The notes beneath the pieces are model-generated. The model saw nothing but the letters and a program-made list of their open reading frames with translations. It searched no databases and was not told where the DNA came from. Below are positions 1,827 through 8,450 of a stretch of DNA of 64,000 nt, in pieces. The stretch is taken from assembly GCA_020850575.1 (NCBI GenBank), contig JADZEJ010000001.1, positions 62,001 to 126,000 on the forward strand, given 5' to 3'. How positions within the stretch are numbered: position 1 is the stretch's first letter; each line of letters begins with the position of its first letter. Source of the stretch: Candidatus Uhrbacteria bacterium (GTDB lineage: Bacteria > Patescibacteriota > Patescibacteriia > 2-12-FULL-60-25). The position numbers and the translations under genes were made by a program.

Positions 1827-1830
1827 TTAC

Positions 1831-1859
1831 GGATGCGTTCTGGGTGACCGGAATGCGTC
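1831..1859 (+). other. 12-bp hairpin with GUGA tetraloop just after tRNA-Phe
   Basis: GATGCGTTCTGG pairs with CCGGAATGCGTC around the loop GTGA, a GNRA-type tetraloop; a few pairs are G-U, so the stem forms best as RNA. It starts a few bases after the tRNA CCA. Its right arm contains the sequence repeated at 5987-6000. Confidence 0.5.
1846..1859 (+). repeat. Left copy of imperfect 14-bp repeat flanking the island
   Basis: GACCGGAATGCGTC here and GACCGGAATGCATC at 5987-6000 match at 13 of 14 positions. The copies bracket the recombinase relic and its cargo, making them candidate attachment-site remnants. The left copy also forms one arm of a hairpin, so convergence by chance or by structure is possible. 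Confidence 0.4.
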
Positions 1860-1872
1860 AGTGCCAAAGAAG

Positions 1873-1901
1873 ACCCGGATCTGCAAAGGCCCGGGTTTTT
1901 G
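1873..1901 (+). terminator. Terminator of tRNA-Phe transcript
   Basis: ACCCGG (1873-1878) pairs with CCGGGT (1891-1896), followed by a run of T. Confidence 0.6.
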
Positions 1902-1914
1902 TTTACCTACGTTT

Positions 1915-3010
1915 TTGCTTCTTTTTTTTGATCACGAGCTTTCTATTTTTGACAATAATTCTATTTCTGAGTTGATCCAAGAGCTTTCATTTTTCTTCCT
2001 TTGTTCCCTCATGCAAGACCTAGCTTGGCGCAGGCATGAACATCAATCTTTTTGATGCTCTGAGTAGCCTTAGGGTCGGGATTTGTCCTTGAGACTAGGG
2101 AAAGGAGTTTTAGAATCTTGGCGATTTCGTTTTCACGATCTCGATCGTGCCTAACTCGTCGATATCGAGGCACTCGACCAGCTTCAGAAGCTGGTTCAAA
2201 AGTTTTTTTATGTAAATACGATTCCTTGCAGCTCCCGAAGTGCTAGGTGTAGTGGTAATAGACGTACCGTTTTATGGTCCCATCTGTCAGTCGCTTCACT
2301 TTTTCAGTAGCCGTGATCCCACCTCCACATTCACCACAGCTGAACAGACGCGTGAATGCGAAGTCTTTAAGAGGGCCGTGAGGGCCTTCTGGGAAGAAGC
2401 TTGGGATTTTCTTGCGCCCGGTCGAATAACTCCTACGAGACTATTGGGTCGTGCTTACCCGCGTACCATTTTCCACTCTTTGCAGGGAATTCGTAACGGT
2501 CGGTGTAGAAAGAGTTGGTGAGAATTTGATAGAGACTACTCAGTGCGACCTTCTTGTCGTTCCGTGTCCGAAGTTCAACCATATTATCCCACCATTTCTT
2601 AAACTATCACCCCATCCAACAATAAAACACAACTTTCTCAAAACATTACTTAATAAGAGGTGCTCGCGCCGGATCGATGCAGATACGTTTCGCGCCCTTC
2701 TCAACATTTTTGTCATGTAGATATCCGAGTGGCGTCATATTCGGTCGAAAGTCTAGCTCGACCTTGGTCTTCATCCCACGTTTCACGTTTACGCTCTTAT
2801 AGTCGTTTTCCAACTTTCCTTGGCTGCATAGCATCATGAGCACGAACTTATCGCTCGGCGAGTTTGTGAATCTCGTACTATGCGTTCGGATTTCTTTGAT
2901 CATATTTTGATACATAAGATCGACGATCGTGCCGAGATCGTTCGCGTTGCAGCTCAGGTTACTTTGGCTCGCTCAGGCGGATATCGCGCAGTCATGGACA
3001 CTGCCGCTTC
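1915..3010 (-). pseudogene. Decayed serine recombinase (resolvase/invertase-type integrase)
   Basis: Read on the minus strand across several frames, this stretch retains recognisable pieces of a large serine recombinase. A catalytic-domain piece contains SNLSCNANDLGTIVDLM, IKEIRTHSTRF and SVNVKRGMKTKV. The adjoining recombinase-domain piece has PLGYLHDKN and CIDPARAPLIK. A zinc-ribbon piece follows with CGECGGGITA and a YVYYHYT stretch, then a C-terminal segment with KIDVHACAK and KMKALGSTQK. Many stops (for example straight after the PLIK segment) and frameshifts break it, and the extreme N-terminus with the catalytic serine is not recognisable. Such enzymes integrate or excise mobile elements. 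It lies between tRNA-Phe and the radical SAM operon, so it probably brought in the island and is now dead. The end points are approximate. Confidence 0.75.
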
Positions 3011-3125
3011 GTCGTTGGGGCGAGATCATGGCTCAGCTCACAATTCTGTTCCCTGATCGCGTTCAGTTCTAGCTCAATCTAACACTCACTAATCGCGTCC
3101 GCCGACCCCACGTTGCCGAGCCCGG

Positions 3126-3156
3126 CAAAAATCCGCGTCTAGGTCGCGGATTTTGT
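3126..3156. terminator. Hairpin terminator upstream of the radical SAM operon
   Basis: AAAATCCGCG pairs with CGCGGATTTT across a 7-nt loop, with T/A runs on both sides so it could work in either direction. It insulates the operon that begins at the promoter at 3170. Confidence 0.65.
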
Positions 3157-3169
3157 GCAGCCTCCCCTG

Positions 3170-3198
3170 TTGATTGAATTCAAAATTTTTGTTATTAA
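3170..3198 (+). promoter_or_regulatory. Promoter of the radical SAM operon
   Basis: TTGATT (3170-3175), 17-bp spacer, TATTAA (3193-3198). It gives a leader of about 25 nt that carries a strong Shine-Dalgarno, AAGGAGG at 3215-3221, 8 nt before the ATG. Confidence 0.7.
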
Positions 3199-3229
3199 AA
3201 ACATGTCCTTTAATAAGGAGGTTCCGTTA

Positions 3230-4189
3230 ATGACAACAGAGATTTCACGGCCAAAGAAGGTATACCTGGAGCTGACGCGCGCTTGCAATCTTGCGTGCAC
3301 GCACTGCCTGAACGATTCAGGATCTCGAATGGAGAGTGAGCTCAACTCTGAAGAAATCCTCGGGCTCGTAGAGAGACTTGTTACCTTCGGTATTCGCGAG
3401 ATTCGATTCACGGGCGGCGAACCGACGATTCATCCCGCGCTCGAAGAAGCCATCACACTCGCAACGAGGCTCGGCGTGAAGACGAGCATCGGCAGCAATG
3501 CCGTCGCCGTTACTAAGGAGTCTGCAGTGCGGCTTTTTCAAGTCGGCCTCCAGAAGGCGATCATTAGCCTGGACGGCGATGAACAGAGACACGATGCCGT
3601 TCGCGGCGCGGGTTCATTCCGACGTTCGTGGCGTGGAGTCCGTGCACTGTATGCCTCTGGCGTCGACGTCCGCGTGAACGCCGTAGCCATGAAAACGACA
3701 ATGGATGGGCTGCGTTCCCTGGCACGGCTGTGCGTCGAGGAGGGTGTTCATCTTTTCATCAGGTGTTACATCCCGAGTGGCCGTGCCGTAGGCAACTTGT
3801 CGGAGTTTCCGACGAATGTTGACTATGCACGCCTCCGTACGGAGCTGCATCCCTTCGTCCAGCAAGGTGCGGTCGATGGTCACTATCTTGCCGCGAATAA
3901 GCACGAAATGTGCAGTGCGGGGAATAGTGGCTTCGTGATTCTGCCTAACGGTGACGTCAAATCCTGCGGGTTTCTTTCCGAACTCGGCGAGAGTTCGTAT
4001 GGAAATATCCGCTCCGAAGAGCTGCCCACGATTTGGGATCGCGTGAGATCATCTCGATTTTTGGCCGAAAGCAAATCCAGCTTGGAGCCTTGGTCGAATC
4101 GTCGTTCGGATCTTCCTCGAACAAATTGCCCTGCTGTCGCCATCGGCGGCGGCGAGGTGCTGGTTCAGCTCAGAAGGAGATCGTCATGA
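3230..4189 (+). CDS. Radical SAM/SPASM-domain enzyme
   Basis: 319 residues. The radical SAM cluster motif is C19-x3-C23-x2-C26 (ACNLACTHC) with the SAM-binding RFTGGEPT near residue 60, as in TIM-barrel radical SAM enzymes that bind a [4Fe-4S] cluster and make a 5'-deoxyadenosyl radical. The C-terminus looks like a reduced SPASM/twitch auxiliary-cluster domain: C228 (CSAGNSGFVILPNGDVKSC), C246, a YGNI..IWDRVR segment and C300. The usual final Cys-rich tail is missing. SPASM enzymes typically modify peptides, proteins or sugars; the substrate is unknown. Start ATG 3230 is fixed by AAGGAGG 8 nt upstream. The stop overlaps the next start (ATGA), implying translational coupling. Counted 60-bp lines run 55-60% G+C, well above the ~40% neighbours, so recent acquisition is likely. 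Confidence 0.85.
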   Translation: MTTEISRPKKVYLELTRACNLACTHCLNDSGSRMESELNSEEILGLVERLVTFGIREIRFTGGEPTIHPALEEAITLATRLGVKTSIGSNAVAVTKESAVRLFQVGLQKAIISLDGDEQRHDAVRGAGSFRRSWRGVRALYASGVDVRVNAVAMKTTMDGLRSLARLCVEEGVHLFIRCYIPSGRAVGNLSEFPTNVDYARLRTELHPFVQQGAVDGHYLAANKHEMCSAGNSGFVILPNGDVKSCGFLSELGESSYGNIRSEELPTIWDRVRSSRFLAESKSSLEPWSNRRSDLPRTNCPAVAIGGGEVLVQLRRRSS

Positions 4190-5937
4190 AGTGCCTCGGT
4201 TTGTGCGGGCTGCACGGTGCGGGCAAGACGCATATTGCCGCTCGCTTGCGTGACCTCGGAGGATGGACGGTCATCGACAAGCGGCTCGAACTGAAGCGTC
4301 TCTACGAGAGCGGATGGTTCAGACGCAACAAGCATGAAGCTTGGGAAGCCTGGTATCGCTACACCTACGAACGCTTTGGCTCCGGTCCCGTGATGTTGAA
4401 GATGCTAGAGACTGTCAGTATTTCCACTGAATCGGTAGTGGTCATCGACGCGATTTATACCCCCGAGGAGTGGAAATCACTGCAAGGATATGCACCAGGG
4501 TCAGTTCTTGCGGGAGTCTGGGCACCCCAGGCAATCCGCGACGTTCGTCGGGATGAGCCAAGCGAGATGGATGCTCGCCGCGCGCATTTCTGGCATCATA
4601 GCGGTGCCTGCCTCATGTCGACGGTTGAATGGGTCTTCCCTGGGTCACTACCGGGAGAGTTGCTCGATTGCTTTGCCAGGAGCTCATCACCTATGTCACC
4701 AATCTTTCTTAAACGCTTATGCCCCCCTTCCACAAGCGAGGATCGTGGGCTTTCAGTTTCCGAAATTGCAAAGTCTGGACTTTTAGTTTTTCGTAGACGT
4801 GGTAACAAAACGGAGTTTTTGCTCCTTCATCGTCAAAAACAAAACGATTGGTCTTTTCCGAAGGGGCATGTCGAAAAAGGAGAAGGATTATTAGAGGCCG
4901 GCCTTCGCGAGGTTTTTGAGGAGGCGAACATGCGGCCTATGGTTGTAGGTCGCTTGATTGATTTGGAATATCTAGATGGAAAGGGTAGGCAGATTCGCTT
5001 AGCGCTTTTTTTGGGGTATACGGAAGAAAAAAATGACATACCTAACGTCAGTTCTGAAGGAGAAGCGGCCGAATGGGTGCCGCTTGCTCGAGTTGAACGC
5101 GCTCTGAGCTATGAGAATCTTCAGACGTATTTTAGAACGTATGTCAAGCCCCTGTTTTCTCAAAAGCAATCCGGTGATCAGATACACACTGATGTTATTT
5201 TTTCCGAAACGGAGCAATATAAAAATGAGGCAAGACTGCTTACGCATGCGTTTTTGGATGGCGGCATTTCAAGCGATCCCGTCGAATTAAATCGACTAAT
5301 TCTTAAAAAAGAGAATAGACCAATCAAGCAGGTTAGTTATTTTTTGACTAACCATCAAAACGTCCCCAATGCTGCGTTTTGGTGCAAGGAATTTGGGAGC
5401 TATGTAATCAATGAATGCTATCTGCGATCTTGGCATTCGAAGTCTCAAGTTCAAAGATTTTTGAAAGAGCACGGAGTTCCTGTTTTTCCATCTGAACCTT
5501 ATCTTTTTTCAAGTAAGAAACACAATGCGACATGGATGATGAAAAGTGAGAGGCATGGAATGAAAAATTTTATTTCCATGGAAGCATCGAAGCGTTCTTC
5601 GTGGGATGCTTATTTCGAACAAAAAGCGGACGAGAAACGATTCACTGAGATAAAGCTCGGTTACATAGCAGGACAGATTTTGACAGACGCTAAAGATCTG
5701 CACTTATCATCCGGTTTGATAAGCGCGTTGCATCGGGTTCAAGAATATTTAGGGCTTGAAATTTTTTCAACAGACATTTTTGTAGATAAAATGGGAACAT
5801 TTTATATTGTTGATGTGAATCCTGCACCTGCATTTTTTCACAATATGAAAGCACGCCGAGCTTTTGCTAGTTATATTGGATTAATTGAGAGATTTTATCT
5901 AAAACAAGTTCCTTTTTCAATTAATGAGGTAGCCTAA
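4186..5937 (+). CDS. Three-domain fusion: P-loop kinase - Nudix hydrolase - ATP-grasp-like ligase
   Basis: 583 residues. Residues 1 to ~165 form a small P-loop kinase-like domain with Walker A GLHGAGKT (8-15) and VVVIDAIY as a probable Walker B. Residues ~185-330 form a Nudix domain: the box starts at G227 and runs through E233 and R241-E242..E245-E246, but the usual glycine after the EE is N248. Residues ~345-583 resemble an ATP-grasp ligase: SKSQVQRFLKEHGVPVFPSE, WMMKSERHG, then FSTDIFV and a final VDVNPAP (D543, N545) as metal/ATP ligands. Start 4186 has AGGAG 7 nt upstream and overlaps the radical SAM stop. G+C falls from about 60% to 40% near 4690-4740, at the kinase-Nudix boundary; an in-frame ATG at 4693 could be a former start. 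The kinase and Nudix calls are firm; ATP-grasp is probable. The pathway is unknown. Confidence 0.8.
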   Translation: MKCLGLCGLHGAGKTHIAARLRDLGGWTVIDKRLELKRLYESGWFRRNKHEAWEAWYRYTYERFGSGPVMLKMLETVSISTESVVVIDAIYTPEEWKSLQGYAPGSVLAGVWAPQAIRDVRRDEPSEMDARRAHFWHHSGACLMSTVEWVFPGSLPGELLDCFARSSSPMSPIFLKRLCPPSTSEDRGLSVSEIAKSGLLVFRRRGNKTEFLLLHRQKQNDWSFPKGHVEKGEGLLEAGLREVFEEANMRPMVVGRLIDLEYLDGKGRQIRLALFLGYTEEKNDIPNVSSEGEAAEWVPLARVERALSYENLQTYFRTYVKPLFSQKQSGDQIHTDVIFSETEQYKNEARLLTHAFLDGGISSDPVELNRLILKKENRPIKQVSYFLTNHQNVPNAAFWCKEFGSYVINECYLRSWHSKSQVQRFLKEHGVPVFPSEPYLFSSKKHNATWMMKSERHGMKNFISMEASKRSSWDAYFEQKADEKRFTEIKLGYIAGQILTDAKDLHLSSGLISALHRVQEYLGLEIFSTDIFVDKMGTFYIVDVNPAPAFFHNMKARRAFASYIGLIERFYLKQVPFSINEVA

Positions 5938-6124: not shown

Positions 6125-6398
6125 GTTTGTAATACGTACTAAATTCTCAATTAAAGAAAAGGAATATTTATTAACTGTATTATTCTTGATAATAGTTTTT
6201 TAAAAAAAGATATTTATTTTTATTGAAAAATTAAATACTCTTCACTCAAATACAAACTCATCGACAATCTCGAGACGCATTATCATGTAAAATTTATTGA
6301 TTCATTCATTCTTTTTTTTGTGAACAAGCTATCTGTCATCATCTATGGACGAGTTTCGTTATTCACGTATCATTCGTTATATACCTAATATACCTATT

Positions 6399-8450
6399 AT
6401 GAAATCCGCCCTTACACTCATCATTCCGTTTTTTGGGATCGCAGGAATGAGTTTGGTTGTTGGTTCTGTCACTCTGGCAGCTACACAGCCTACGCGTGCG
6501 CTGACTATTGGTACACCCCAGCGTTTCACCTCTTGTTCGGTCTTGAAGAACCGCATCGTCTCGGCGCGACAAGGTTCTGATGGTTTTAACGGCAATGCGC
6601 TTTTCAAACGAGCAATACCCGCCACGACATTGTCTGCACCAAACATGCTTGGTCGTGATCAGGCCGGCAGTGCCGGTCAAGGTATGGCTGAATCTGCCGT
6701 AACTTCCCCGGTTATGCCAGGCGATTTTTCAACAACCAATGTTCAAGTTCAGGGTGTAGACGAAGCAGATATTATTAAGCAGGACGGAGAATTCGTGTAC
6801 CATCTTACACAAAATCGTTTAGCCATTTCGCAAGCTCACCCACCAACCGAAGCCACACTGCGTTCAATTACCTCATTTGATTCAAATTTTTCTGCACAGG
6901 ATTTGTATATCGAAGGAAATCGCTTAACCGTGATTGGAAACTCTTGGGAAAGCGCTCCCACGTCACCTGAACCAATCCCATTACCCGGGCGTCCTGTAAC
7001 AAAAAATAAAATGATGCCGTTTTGGCGCGGTCAAAATACCACCCGTATTGAAATTTACGATATCACTAACCGTGATCAGATTAAGAAACTGCGCACTCTG
7101 GAATTTGATGGGACGATAAGCACATCACGCCTTATCAATGGACGCATCTATGCTGTCATGAACAGTTTTTCCAATTGGGAAAATGGTGAATTGATCAACT
7201 CAACGAACCTGGTTCCGAATTATTCTGATAGTTCTATCGGAAGCGCATCACATGCCATGCTGCCATGCGGGAGCGTGACTTATTTTGATCGTGGGCCAGC
7301 GGATCAATTCTTAGCCATCGCAAGCATTCCGATGAGTGGTACCGGAGAAATTCAACGCTCGGTAATTCTTGGTTCAAGTGAAACCGTCTATGCAAACCAA
7401 GATTCAATCTATGTAGCACGTCAAGATTGGAATCAAGCTCGACCTTGGCTCGTTGACAGCTTGCGTCAAACTCAGACATCTCAAGAAAAAACACAGATCT
7501 ACGCCTTCACTTTATCAAATGGTGCAATTCGTTTTCGTGCGAAAACATCCGTTCCTGGCCATCTCTTGAACCAGTATAGTCTTGATGAAGATAAAAACGT
7601 CCTTCGCGTGGCAACAACCGATGGGCAAGTTTGGAATTCAAATAAACCATCGACAAGCGCCGTATATACCTTACATGCAAACAACCTCAACCAAATAGGA
7701 TCAGTTTCAGGTATCGCCCCCGGTGAACAAATTTACAGTATCCGCTTTGCAGGAGATCGTGCTTATATGGTCACCTTCAAAAAAATTGATCCCTTCTTTG
7801 TGATTGACTTAGCCGATGCCGCAAAGCCGCGTATTCTTGGAAAATTGAAAATCCCCGGATACTCTGACTATCTTCATCCAATGGATGCCAATCATGTCAT
7901 CGGTATCGGTAAGAATGCAATCGATGCGCCCGAAACCAGCTTTGCTTGGTACCAAGGATTAAAGCTTGCCGTATTCGATGTGACTCAGGTTGAACAACCG
8001 AAAGAACTATGGAAAACAGAAATCGGTGACCGCGGTAGTGATTCCCCTGCTTTGCATGATCCGCATGCTTTTTTGTATGATGCGAAGCGTCAATTACTTG
8101 CATTACCGGTCACGGTTACGAAACTTAGCCAGGAACAACGTGCTCAGTTTCAAGGTAGTGAGTATGGCGACGTCGTTTTTCAAGGAGCTTTTGTTTTTCG
8201 GCTCACGCTTGAAAAAGGATTTGAACTTTTGGGACGTGTTTCACATACGGAAGATCAACAAACTTACTTGAAGAGTACTCACTGGTTCTCAGACCCTTTG
8301 CATGCGATTGATCGTATTTTGCTGAATCGCGAAACTCTCATCACCGCTTCGCAAAGTCAATTACAATTTCACCATTTACCAGAATTATCTGGATACAAAG
8401 CGGTTATTTACCCAGAAATAAAACAAAGACCTGATTACATACTTTACTGA
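6399..8450 (+). CDS. Secreted C-terminal beta-propeller protein (PF09826-like)
   Basis: 683 residues from ATG 6399, which gives a clean signal peptide (MKSALTLIIPFFGIAG... to about residue 30). The segment NVQVQGVDEADIIKQDGEFVYHLTQ is the hallmark of the secreted beta-propeller family. The rest has repeated beta-blade patterns such as VRIYDI-like and VFDVTQVEQPKELWK. Function is unknown; family members are extracellular or envelope proteins. A longer reading from 6345 is possible, but the shorter start gives a proper signal peptide and has a -10-like TAATAT just upstream. It stands alone, ending at a shared bidirectional terminator. Confidence 0.8.
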   Translation: MKSALTLIIPFFGIAGMSLVVGSVTLAATQPTRALTIGTPQRFTSCSVLKNRIVSARQGSDGFNGNALFKRAIPATTLSAPNMLGRDQAGSAGQGMAESAVTSPVMPGDFSTTNVQVQGVDEADIIKQDGEFVYHLTQNRLAISQAHPPTEATLRSITSFDSNFSAQDLYIEGNRLTVIGNSWESAPTSPEPIPLPGRPVTKNKMMPFWRGQNTTRIEIYDITNRDQIKKLRTLEFDGTISTSRLINGRIYAVMNSFSNWENGELINSTNLVPNYSDSSIGSASHAMLPCGSVTYFDRGPADQFLAIASIPMSGTGEIQRSVILGSSETVYANQDSIYVARQDWNQARPWLVDSLRQTQTSQEKTQIYAFTLSNGAIRFRAKTSVPGHLLNQYSLDEDKNVLRVATTDGQVWNSNKPSTSAVYTLHANNLNQIGSVSGIAPGEQIYSIRFAGDRAYMVTFKKIDPFFVIDLADAAKPRILGKLKIPGYSDYLHPMDANHVIGIGKNAIDAPETSFAWYQGLKLAVFDVTQVEQPKELWKTEIGDRGSDSPALHDPHAFLYDAKRQLLALPVTVTKLSQEQRAQFQGSEYGDVVFQGAFVFRLTLEKGFELLGRVSHTEDQQTYLKSTHWFSDPLHAIDRILLNRETLITASQSQLQFHHLPELSGYKAVIYPEIKQRPDYILY

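Follow-up and report, generated by a model that had tools for sequence, protein, structure and literature searches.

The analyzed window, i.e., the whole stretch of DNA under study, comprised 64,000 nt of Candidatus Uhrbacteria bacterium (GCA_020850575.1, contig JADZEJ010000001.1, positions 62,001–126,000, forward strand). A radical SAM (rSAM) enzyme of 319 aa was encoded on the plus strand (3230–4189) downstream of a ribosome-binding site, AAGGAGG, on the same strand (3216–3223), and was followed by a plus-strand open frame of 583 codons, ORF2 (4186–5937), in which P-loop kinase, Nudix, and ATP-grasp domains were combined. The two frames shared an ATGA overlap (ATG at 4186, TGA at 4187–4189); both the coordinates and the translational coupling given in the original prediction were seen in the sequence. 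The four enzymes are referred to below as the cassette. A large Beta_propel protein (PF09826) was encoded directly 3' of it (6345–8450).

The first protein belongs to the radical SAM superfamily, as seen from its CX3CX2C motif (C19, C23, and C26) and its match to PF04055 (Radical_SAM, E=7.8e-21); the FTGGEP motif was also present. SPASM was reported by Pfam as well (E=4.4e-6). However, the complete SPASM pattern, with two auxiliary clusters and seven cysteines (CX9-15GX4C ... CX2CX5CX3C ... C), was not found: the CX2CX5CX3C block was absent. The only auxiliary cysteines conserved with the counterpart from genome G638, a member of another family of the same class, were C228, C246, and C300. These residues form the twitch pattern (C228-X12-G241-X4-C246 plus C300), all of which is kept in G638. 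The window enzyme is, judging by its residues, twitch-like, with one predicted auxiliary cluster, rather than full SPASM; of the proposed radical SAM/SPASM assignment, the rSAM part and the auxiliary cysteines were retained, and the SPASM part was abandoned. The two enzymes had 39% identity with all key cysteines kept, and formed a clade with 100/100 support apart from other homologs of the class. The G638 protein starts with an RxExFG domain, common to several rSAM relatives and missing from the window enzyme; no match for this domain, including any recognition element, was found in Pfam or PDB. The best NCBIfam model for the window enzyme was mycofactocin maturase, with 119 bits against a curated cut-off of 265 bits, and the peptide maturase SkfB also scored. 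The PADLOC model 'viperins associated with kinases' matched residues 14–157 only (E=1.9e-17, 62 bits); the match is confined to the generic rSAM core, and the protein was not assigned to the prokaryotic viperins.

The kinase gene (4186–4712, plus strand) encodes an AdkA/UPF0200-like P-loop protein with the Walker A motif GLHGAGKT (4207–4230). Its presumed ancestral end, TAA at 4710–4712, comes into frame only after the shift at ~4667. Pfam recognized the P-loop kinase weakly (AAA_33, E=0.003), and a profile search linked it to adenylate-kinase-related proteins (E=2.2e-6), the closest being AMP-binding 3lw7; the structure model was poor and of low confidence (pLDDT 57). The family had three members among the genomes searched (window, G638, and G022, the latter from the window's own family), the remaining matches being weak and to generic P-loop kinases; a scan of genome contigs returned the G022 record JAHIUG010000070.1 as the sole match. 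Weaker relatives in the Patescibacteria G107 and G036 adjoin dUTPase genes; they appear to be ordinary relatives and were rejected as cassette members.

The Nudix domain (4693–5160, plus strand; Pfam NUDIX, E=3.4e-15) probably has its own ATG at 4693, preceded by AGGAG and aligned with the presumed Nudix start of G022. Its Nudix box, GX5EX7REVFEE (4864–4923; G227–E246 of the ORF2 protein), agrees with GX5EX7REUXEEXGU except that its last G is N, a substitution also present in a Caenorhabditis elegans Ap4A hydrolase, and Ap4A hydrolases were its closest relatives. A single clade of the cassette Nudix proteins lacked support (p-AU 0.09); Nudix may therefore be an exchangeable partner, or adjacent by chance. 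Genes for rSAM enzymes of other subfamilies adjoin Nudix genes at four further loci, L042 (G130), L092 (G604), L095 (G003), and L097 (G569), and the pairing seems recurrent in the Patescibacteria phylum. Those of G604, G003, and G569 were rejected as cassette members, since they fall outside the window/G638 rSAM clade and their Nudix types differ; the G130 neighbors were also kept apart from the cassette count.

For the last 240 residues of ORF2 no significant Pfam family was found. An AlphaFold model of this domain (5164–5937, plus strand), built from the window and four other rows (G079, G638, and two contig ends of G646), had a pLDDT of 70 and a pTM of 0.70 and was weak at residues 110–155. 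Foldseek against PDB gave 225 matches at E<=0.001, headed by ArgX (E=3.8e-10); the best 50 were all ATP-grasp ligases, including ArgX, PsnB (~1e-8), D-Ala ligases, MdnB/MdnC, and ITPK. A five-row profile gave weak matches (best 0.005), among which ATP-grasp enzymes made up all 24 of the 24 PDB matches listed, with tubulin-tyrosine ligase, ITPK, Ddl, and cyanophycin synthase among them. The predicted structure confirmed the ATP-grasp fold in the C-terminal region, the absence of which had been named as grounds against the original prediction. By sequence alignment, the putative metal-binding acidic-x-N motif DVNPAP (5812–5829) and the K of KSxRH (KTxxH in G079), a candidate ATP lysine, were conserved. 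Among 334 genomes of the class, the family was present in the window genome, G079, G638, and G646, as a separate gene in the latter three; a RimK-like distant relative in G087, without partner genes, was rejected. The Nudix–ATP-grasp join is in frame without any shift and was found only in the window; a second frameshift, considered in view of a GTGA overlap in other frames, was discarded because frame 1 is open without change.

The kinase–Nudix junction probably has a different origin. DNA alignment to G022 over this region contained one internal single-base gap at ~4667, the site of a probable one-base deletion (4667–4668, plus strand) putting the kinase in frame with Nudix. The restored frame of the window reads LCQELITYVTNLS and a stop, and that of G022 reads LCQEFIAYVNS and a stop; the old kinase end, CQELITYVTNLS with its stop, is still legible in the other window frame and matches the G022 kinase end CQEFIAYVNS. 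The G638 kinase has a comparable C-terminal segment, and its kinase and Nudix are encoded separately. Given the gap, the readable kinase end, and the Nudix start aligned with the presumed one of G022, the best explanation of the join is a single lost base that merged two overlapping genes, be the cause a mutation or an error in sequencing. The 583-residue three-domain protein was therefore given up as an evolved enzyme, and of the proposed two-gene operon only the two overlapping frames of the window stand, the ancestral set being four genes. It is quite possible, if short of probable, that the long ORF mainly reflects an error of sequencing or assembly and that the true genome has separate kinase and Nudix–ATP-grasp genes: the base is missing relative to G022, and the ancestral kinase stop and Nudix start both persist. 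Against this, the other ORFs of the window are long, tightly packed, and intact, so errors are not common, which is a mild argument for a real mutation. The question bears on the fusion only and not on the cassette. It also serves as a caution that one lost base can yield a striking 'multidomain' protein. A strong terminator-like hairpin was found 3' of the kinase in G022 and G638 (z -4.4 and -6.0) and not in the window (z -0.9); lying between kinase and Nudix, it argues against a single transcript in those two genomes. On the G022 contig (L037, C3), a strong terminator-like hairpin (4244–4299, minus strand) comes after the kinase remnant and falls inside the opening codons of the Nudix ORF, which makes the Nudix start there a tentative one.

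All four genes together were found in two genomes, those of the window and G638. The G638 genome is 78% complete and carries them on a 5.7-kb contig in the order rSAM (239–1441), kinase (1458–1982), Nudix (2037–2552), and, convergently on the opposite strand, ATP-grasp (2617–3450). In G079, Nudix and ATP-grasp likewise form a convergent pair. G022 retains the C-terminal half of the kinase with a Nudix gene after it, and no rSAM was found there at E<=1e-8. The survey covered ~700 genomes of Patescibacteria; beyond this phylum, it extended to collections of plasmids, phages, and viruses and to a single narrow scan of genomes; homologs of the kinase and ATP-grasp were absent from phages, plasmids, and viral contigs. 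The genes carry four domains with their motifs, they are linked in a second bacterial family, and kinase and Nudix are probably merged by one lost base here. The proposed undescribed system of rSAM, kinase, Nudix, and ATP-grasp was supported by the four neighbors in G638 and the pairs in G079 and G022; the concern that unrelated genes are joined only here applied to the fusion, whereas the genes themselves are neighbors elsewhere. We consider it highly probable that they form a real co-functional cassette.

Several observations concern neighboring or comparable loci. Beside the G638 cassette (L074, 4098–4889), a 263-aa protein without Pfam, PHROG, or PADLOC matches was encoded; after it comes a second Nudix, whose N-terminus resembles a zinc ribbon. 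Plasmid NZ_CP149876.1 of Rhizobium sp. T1473 (L098, 152149–165192) has a tandem pair of rSAM/SPASM genes whose products start with the RxExFG N-terminus, and also encodes a MazG-like pyrophosphatase, a thymidylate kinase, and a further two proteins without names, of which one looked HhH-like on visual inspection; this is a parallel theme of rSAM, nucleotide kinase, and pyrophosphohydrolase. Plasmid pAT1 of Aureibacter tunicatorum (L099, 420956–433801) encodes in a row a RimK ATP-grasp, three DUF1843 small proteins, an rSAM, and a methyltransferase, which looks like a peptide-modification cluster.

The third-codon-position GC was 0.61–0.64 in the rSAM and kinase genes, 0.41 in Nudix, and 0.33 in ATP-grasp, with a window GC of 0.42. 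Upstream of the cassette, tRNA-Phe (1752–1826) adjoins a probable large serine recombinase, decayed into several frames (1830–2915, minus strand; weak PF13408 match, E=0.013, below the cut-off), which is a candidate entry route. The GC-rich rSAM and kinase genes, the adjacent tRNA and probable recombinase, and the patchy distribution together suggest a probable lateral origin for the cassette.

The open-access papers searched contained no account of a pathway that combines these enzymes. We tentatively favor, as the best explanation, a biosynthetic cassette of four enzymes, rare and of lateral origin, with a nucleotide-like small-molecule route. A biosynthetic role is likely; the nucleotide type of the route is put forward with somewhat greater reserve. 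Among solved structures, the kinase is nearest to AMP-binding adenylate-kinase-related proteins, and Nudix is nearest to Ap4A hydrolases, which points to a nucleotide-type substrate, and the dUTPase genes beside the kinase relatives are a hint in the same direction. The kinase would phosphorylate a small substrate, for which a nucleoside or a nucleotide is plausible; the rSAM enzyme might modify the (phosphorylated) substrate by radical chemistry; ATP-grasp could couple a carboxylate with either an amine or a hydroxyl via an acyl phosphate; and Nudix may remove a nucleoside-phosphate or diphosphate group, as deprotection or self-protection. Both the order of the steps and the substrate are our inference. 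The most specific version, a dedicated four-enzyme route to a nucleotide- or sugar-phosphate-derived amide through phosphorylation, radical modification, ATP-grasp ligation, and Nudix release, is rather doubtful. If true, it would be a minimal new natural-product or cofactor pathway in an epibiont, ultra-small Patescibacterium. Against the cassette view stand the count of two complete sets, the unsupported Nudix clade, the hairpin between kinase and Nudix in G638 and G022, and the low confidence of the kinase model; nor were genes for transport or resistance noted next to the cassette. Genomes of Patescibacteria are very small, and few secondary pathways are known from them; a laterally spread cassette would therefore be a compact model for an epibiont–host product or signal.

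The main rival is a RiPP/graspetide-like route, in which ATP-grasp and rSAM modify a ribosomal precursor peptide and the kinase and Nudix are accessory; we regard it as unlikely. The peptide ligases PsnB and MdnB/MdnC are among the best fold matches of the ATP-grasp domain, the rSAM enzyme scores with peptide maturases (mycofactocin, SkfB), the RxExFG domain of its G638 counterpart is common to other rSAM proteins, and graspetides are reported in CPR bacteria (PMC8939145). However, the window enzyme has no such domain, which itself resembles no recognition element in Pfam or PDB, and Nudix is not mentioned in the graspetide survey (PMC8939145). A conserved small precursor peptide, named in the original prediction as something to look for near homologous loci, was not found either: in an all-against-all comparison of ORFs of at least 20 aa from the window, G638, G022, and G079 loci, the matches were confined to known genes, the antisense shadows of these, and some weak pairs ascribed to chance, and no small ORF was common to the loci. 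A precursor adjoining the ATP-grasp gene, which defines a graspetide cluster, was thus not seen among the four loci; a lineage-specific one may exist.

Less probable still is a decaying acquired island with no present function in this genome. The frameshift at ~4667, the missing N-terminal domain of the rSAM enzyme, the probable decayed recombinase alongside, the half kinase of G022, and the rarity of the cassette are consistent with decay; yet the catalytic motifs are intact in all four enzymes, the merged frame is open over 583 codons, and the translational coupling and ribosome-binding sites are preserved. A defence cassette, also suggested originally, found no specific support. Viperin-like antiviral nucleotide-analogue production, with a nucleotide kinase taking part and Nudix in a house-cleaning role, would accord with the PADLOC match (E=1.9e-17), but this covers the generic rSAM core only, at 62 bits versus 119 for mycofactocin maturase; the C-terminus is twitch-like rather than viperin-like, no defence neighbors were noted on the G638 contig, and close phage or viral homologs were absent, so we hold it to be very improbable. 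The biosynthetic cassette remains our preferred reading.

Prokaryotic viperins with kinases resemble the cassette in having an rSAM gene adjoining a nucleotide-kinase-like one; the window enzyme differs in its C-terminal auxiliary-cluster domain, the similarity being limited to the generic rSAM core. Its core is also similar to the mycofactocin maturase MftC and other rSAM-SPASM maturases, but its score is far under the curated cut-off, it has three auxiliary cysteines only, and no mycofactocin partner genes were seen. Graspetide systems (plesiocin PsnB, microviridin MdnB/MdnC) have the ATP-grasp fold in common with the cassette; unlike in the cassette, kinase and Nudix are not standard parts, and the cassette has no precursor found. 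The amino-group-carrier ligases ArgX/LysX (3vpb, 1uc9) were the top structural matches of the ATP-grasp domain, at ~12% identity, with no LysW carrier protein noted. The polyoxin/nikkomycin and albomycin pathways combine an rSAM step with a cryptic kinase step, and in polyoxin/nikkomycin an ATP-grasp ligase joins nucleoside and amino acid; these are long clusters with other rSAM subfamilies and are not known to have Nudix as a central partner. Albomycin is also treated in the accessible text of PMC12691670, which describes the 4'-thiothymidine cluster of Photorhabdus with rSAM thmA, nucleoside kinase thmB, and nucleoside triphosphatase thmC, a cryptic phosphorylation logic, and self-resistance conferred by thmC. 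The same portion of that paper reports no ATP-grasp enzyme, unlike the cassette (PMC12691670). By enzyme types rather than by sequence, the 4'-thiothymidine cluster as described there is, like the cassette, a compact set of rSAM, kinase, and nucleoside-phosphate hydrolase (PMC12691670).
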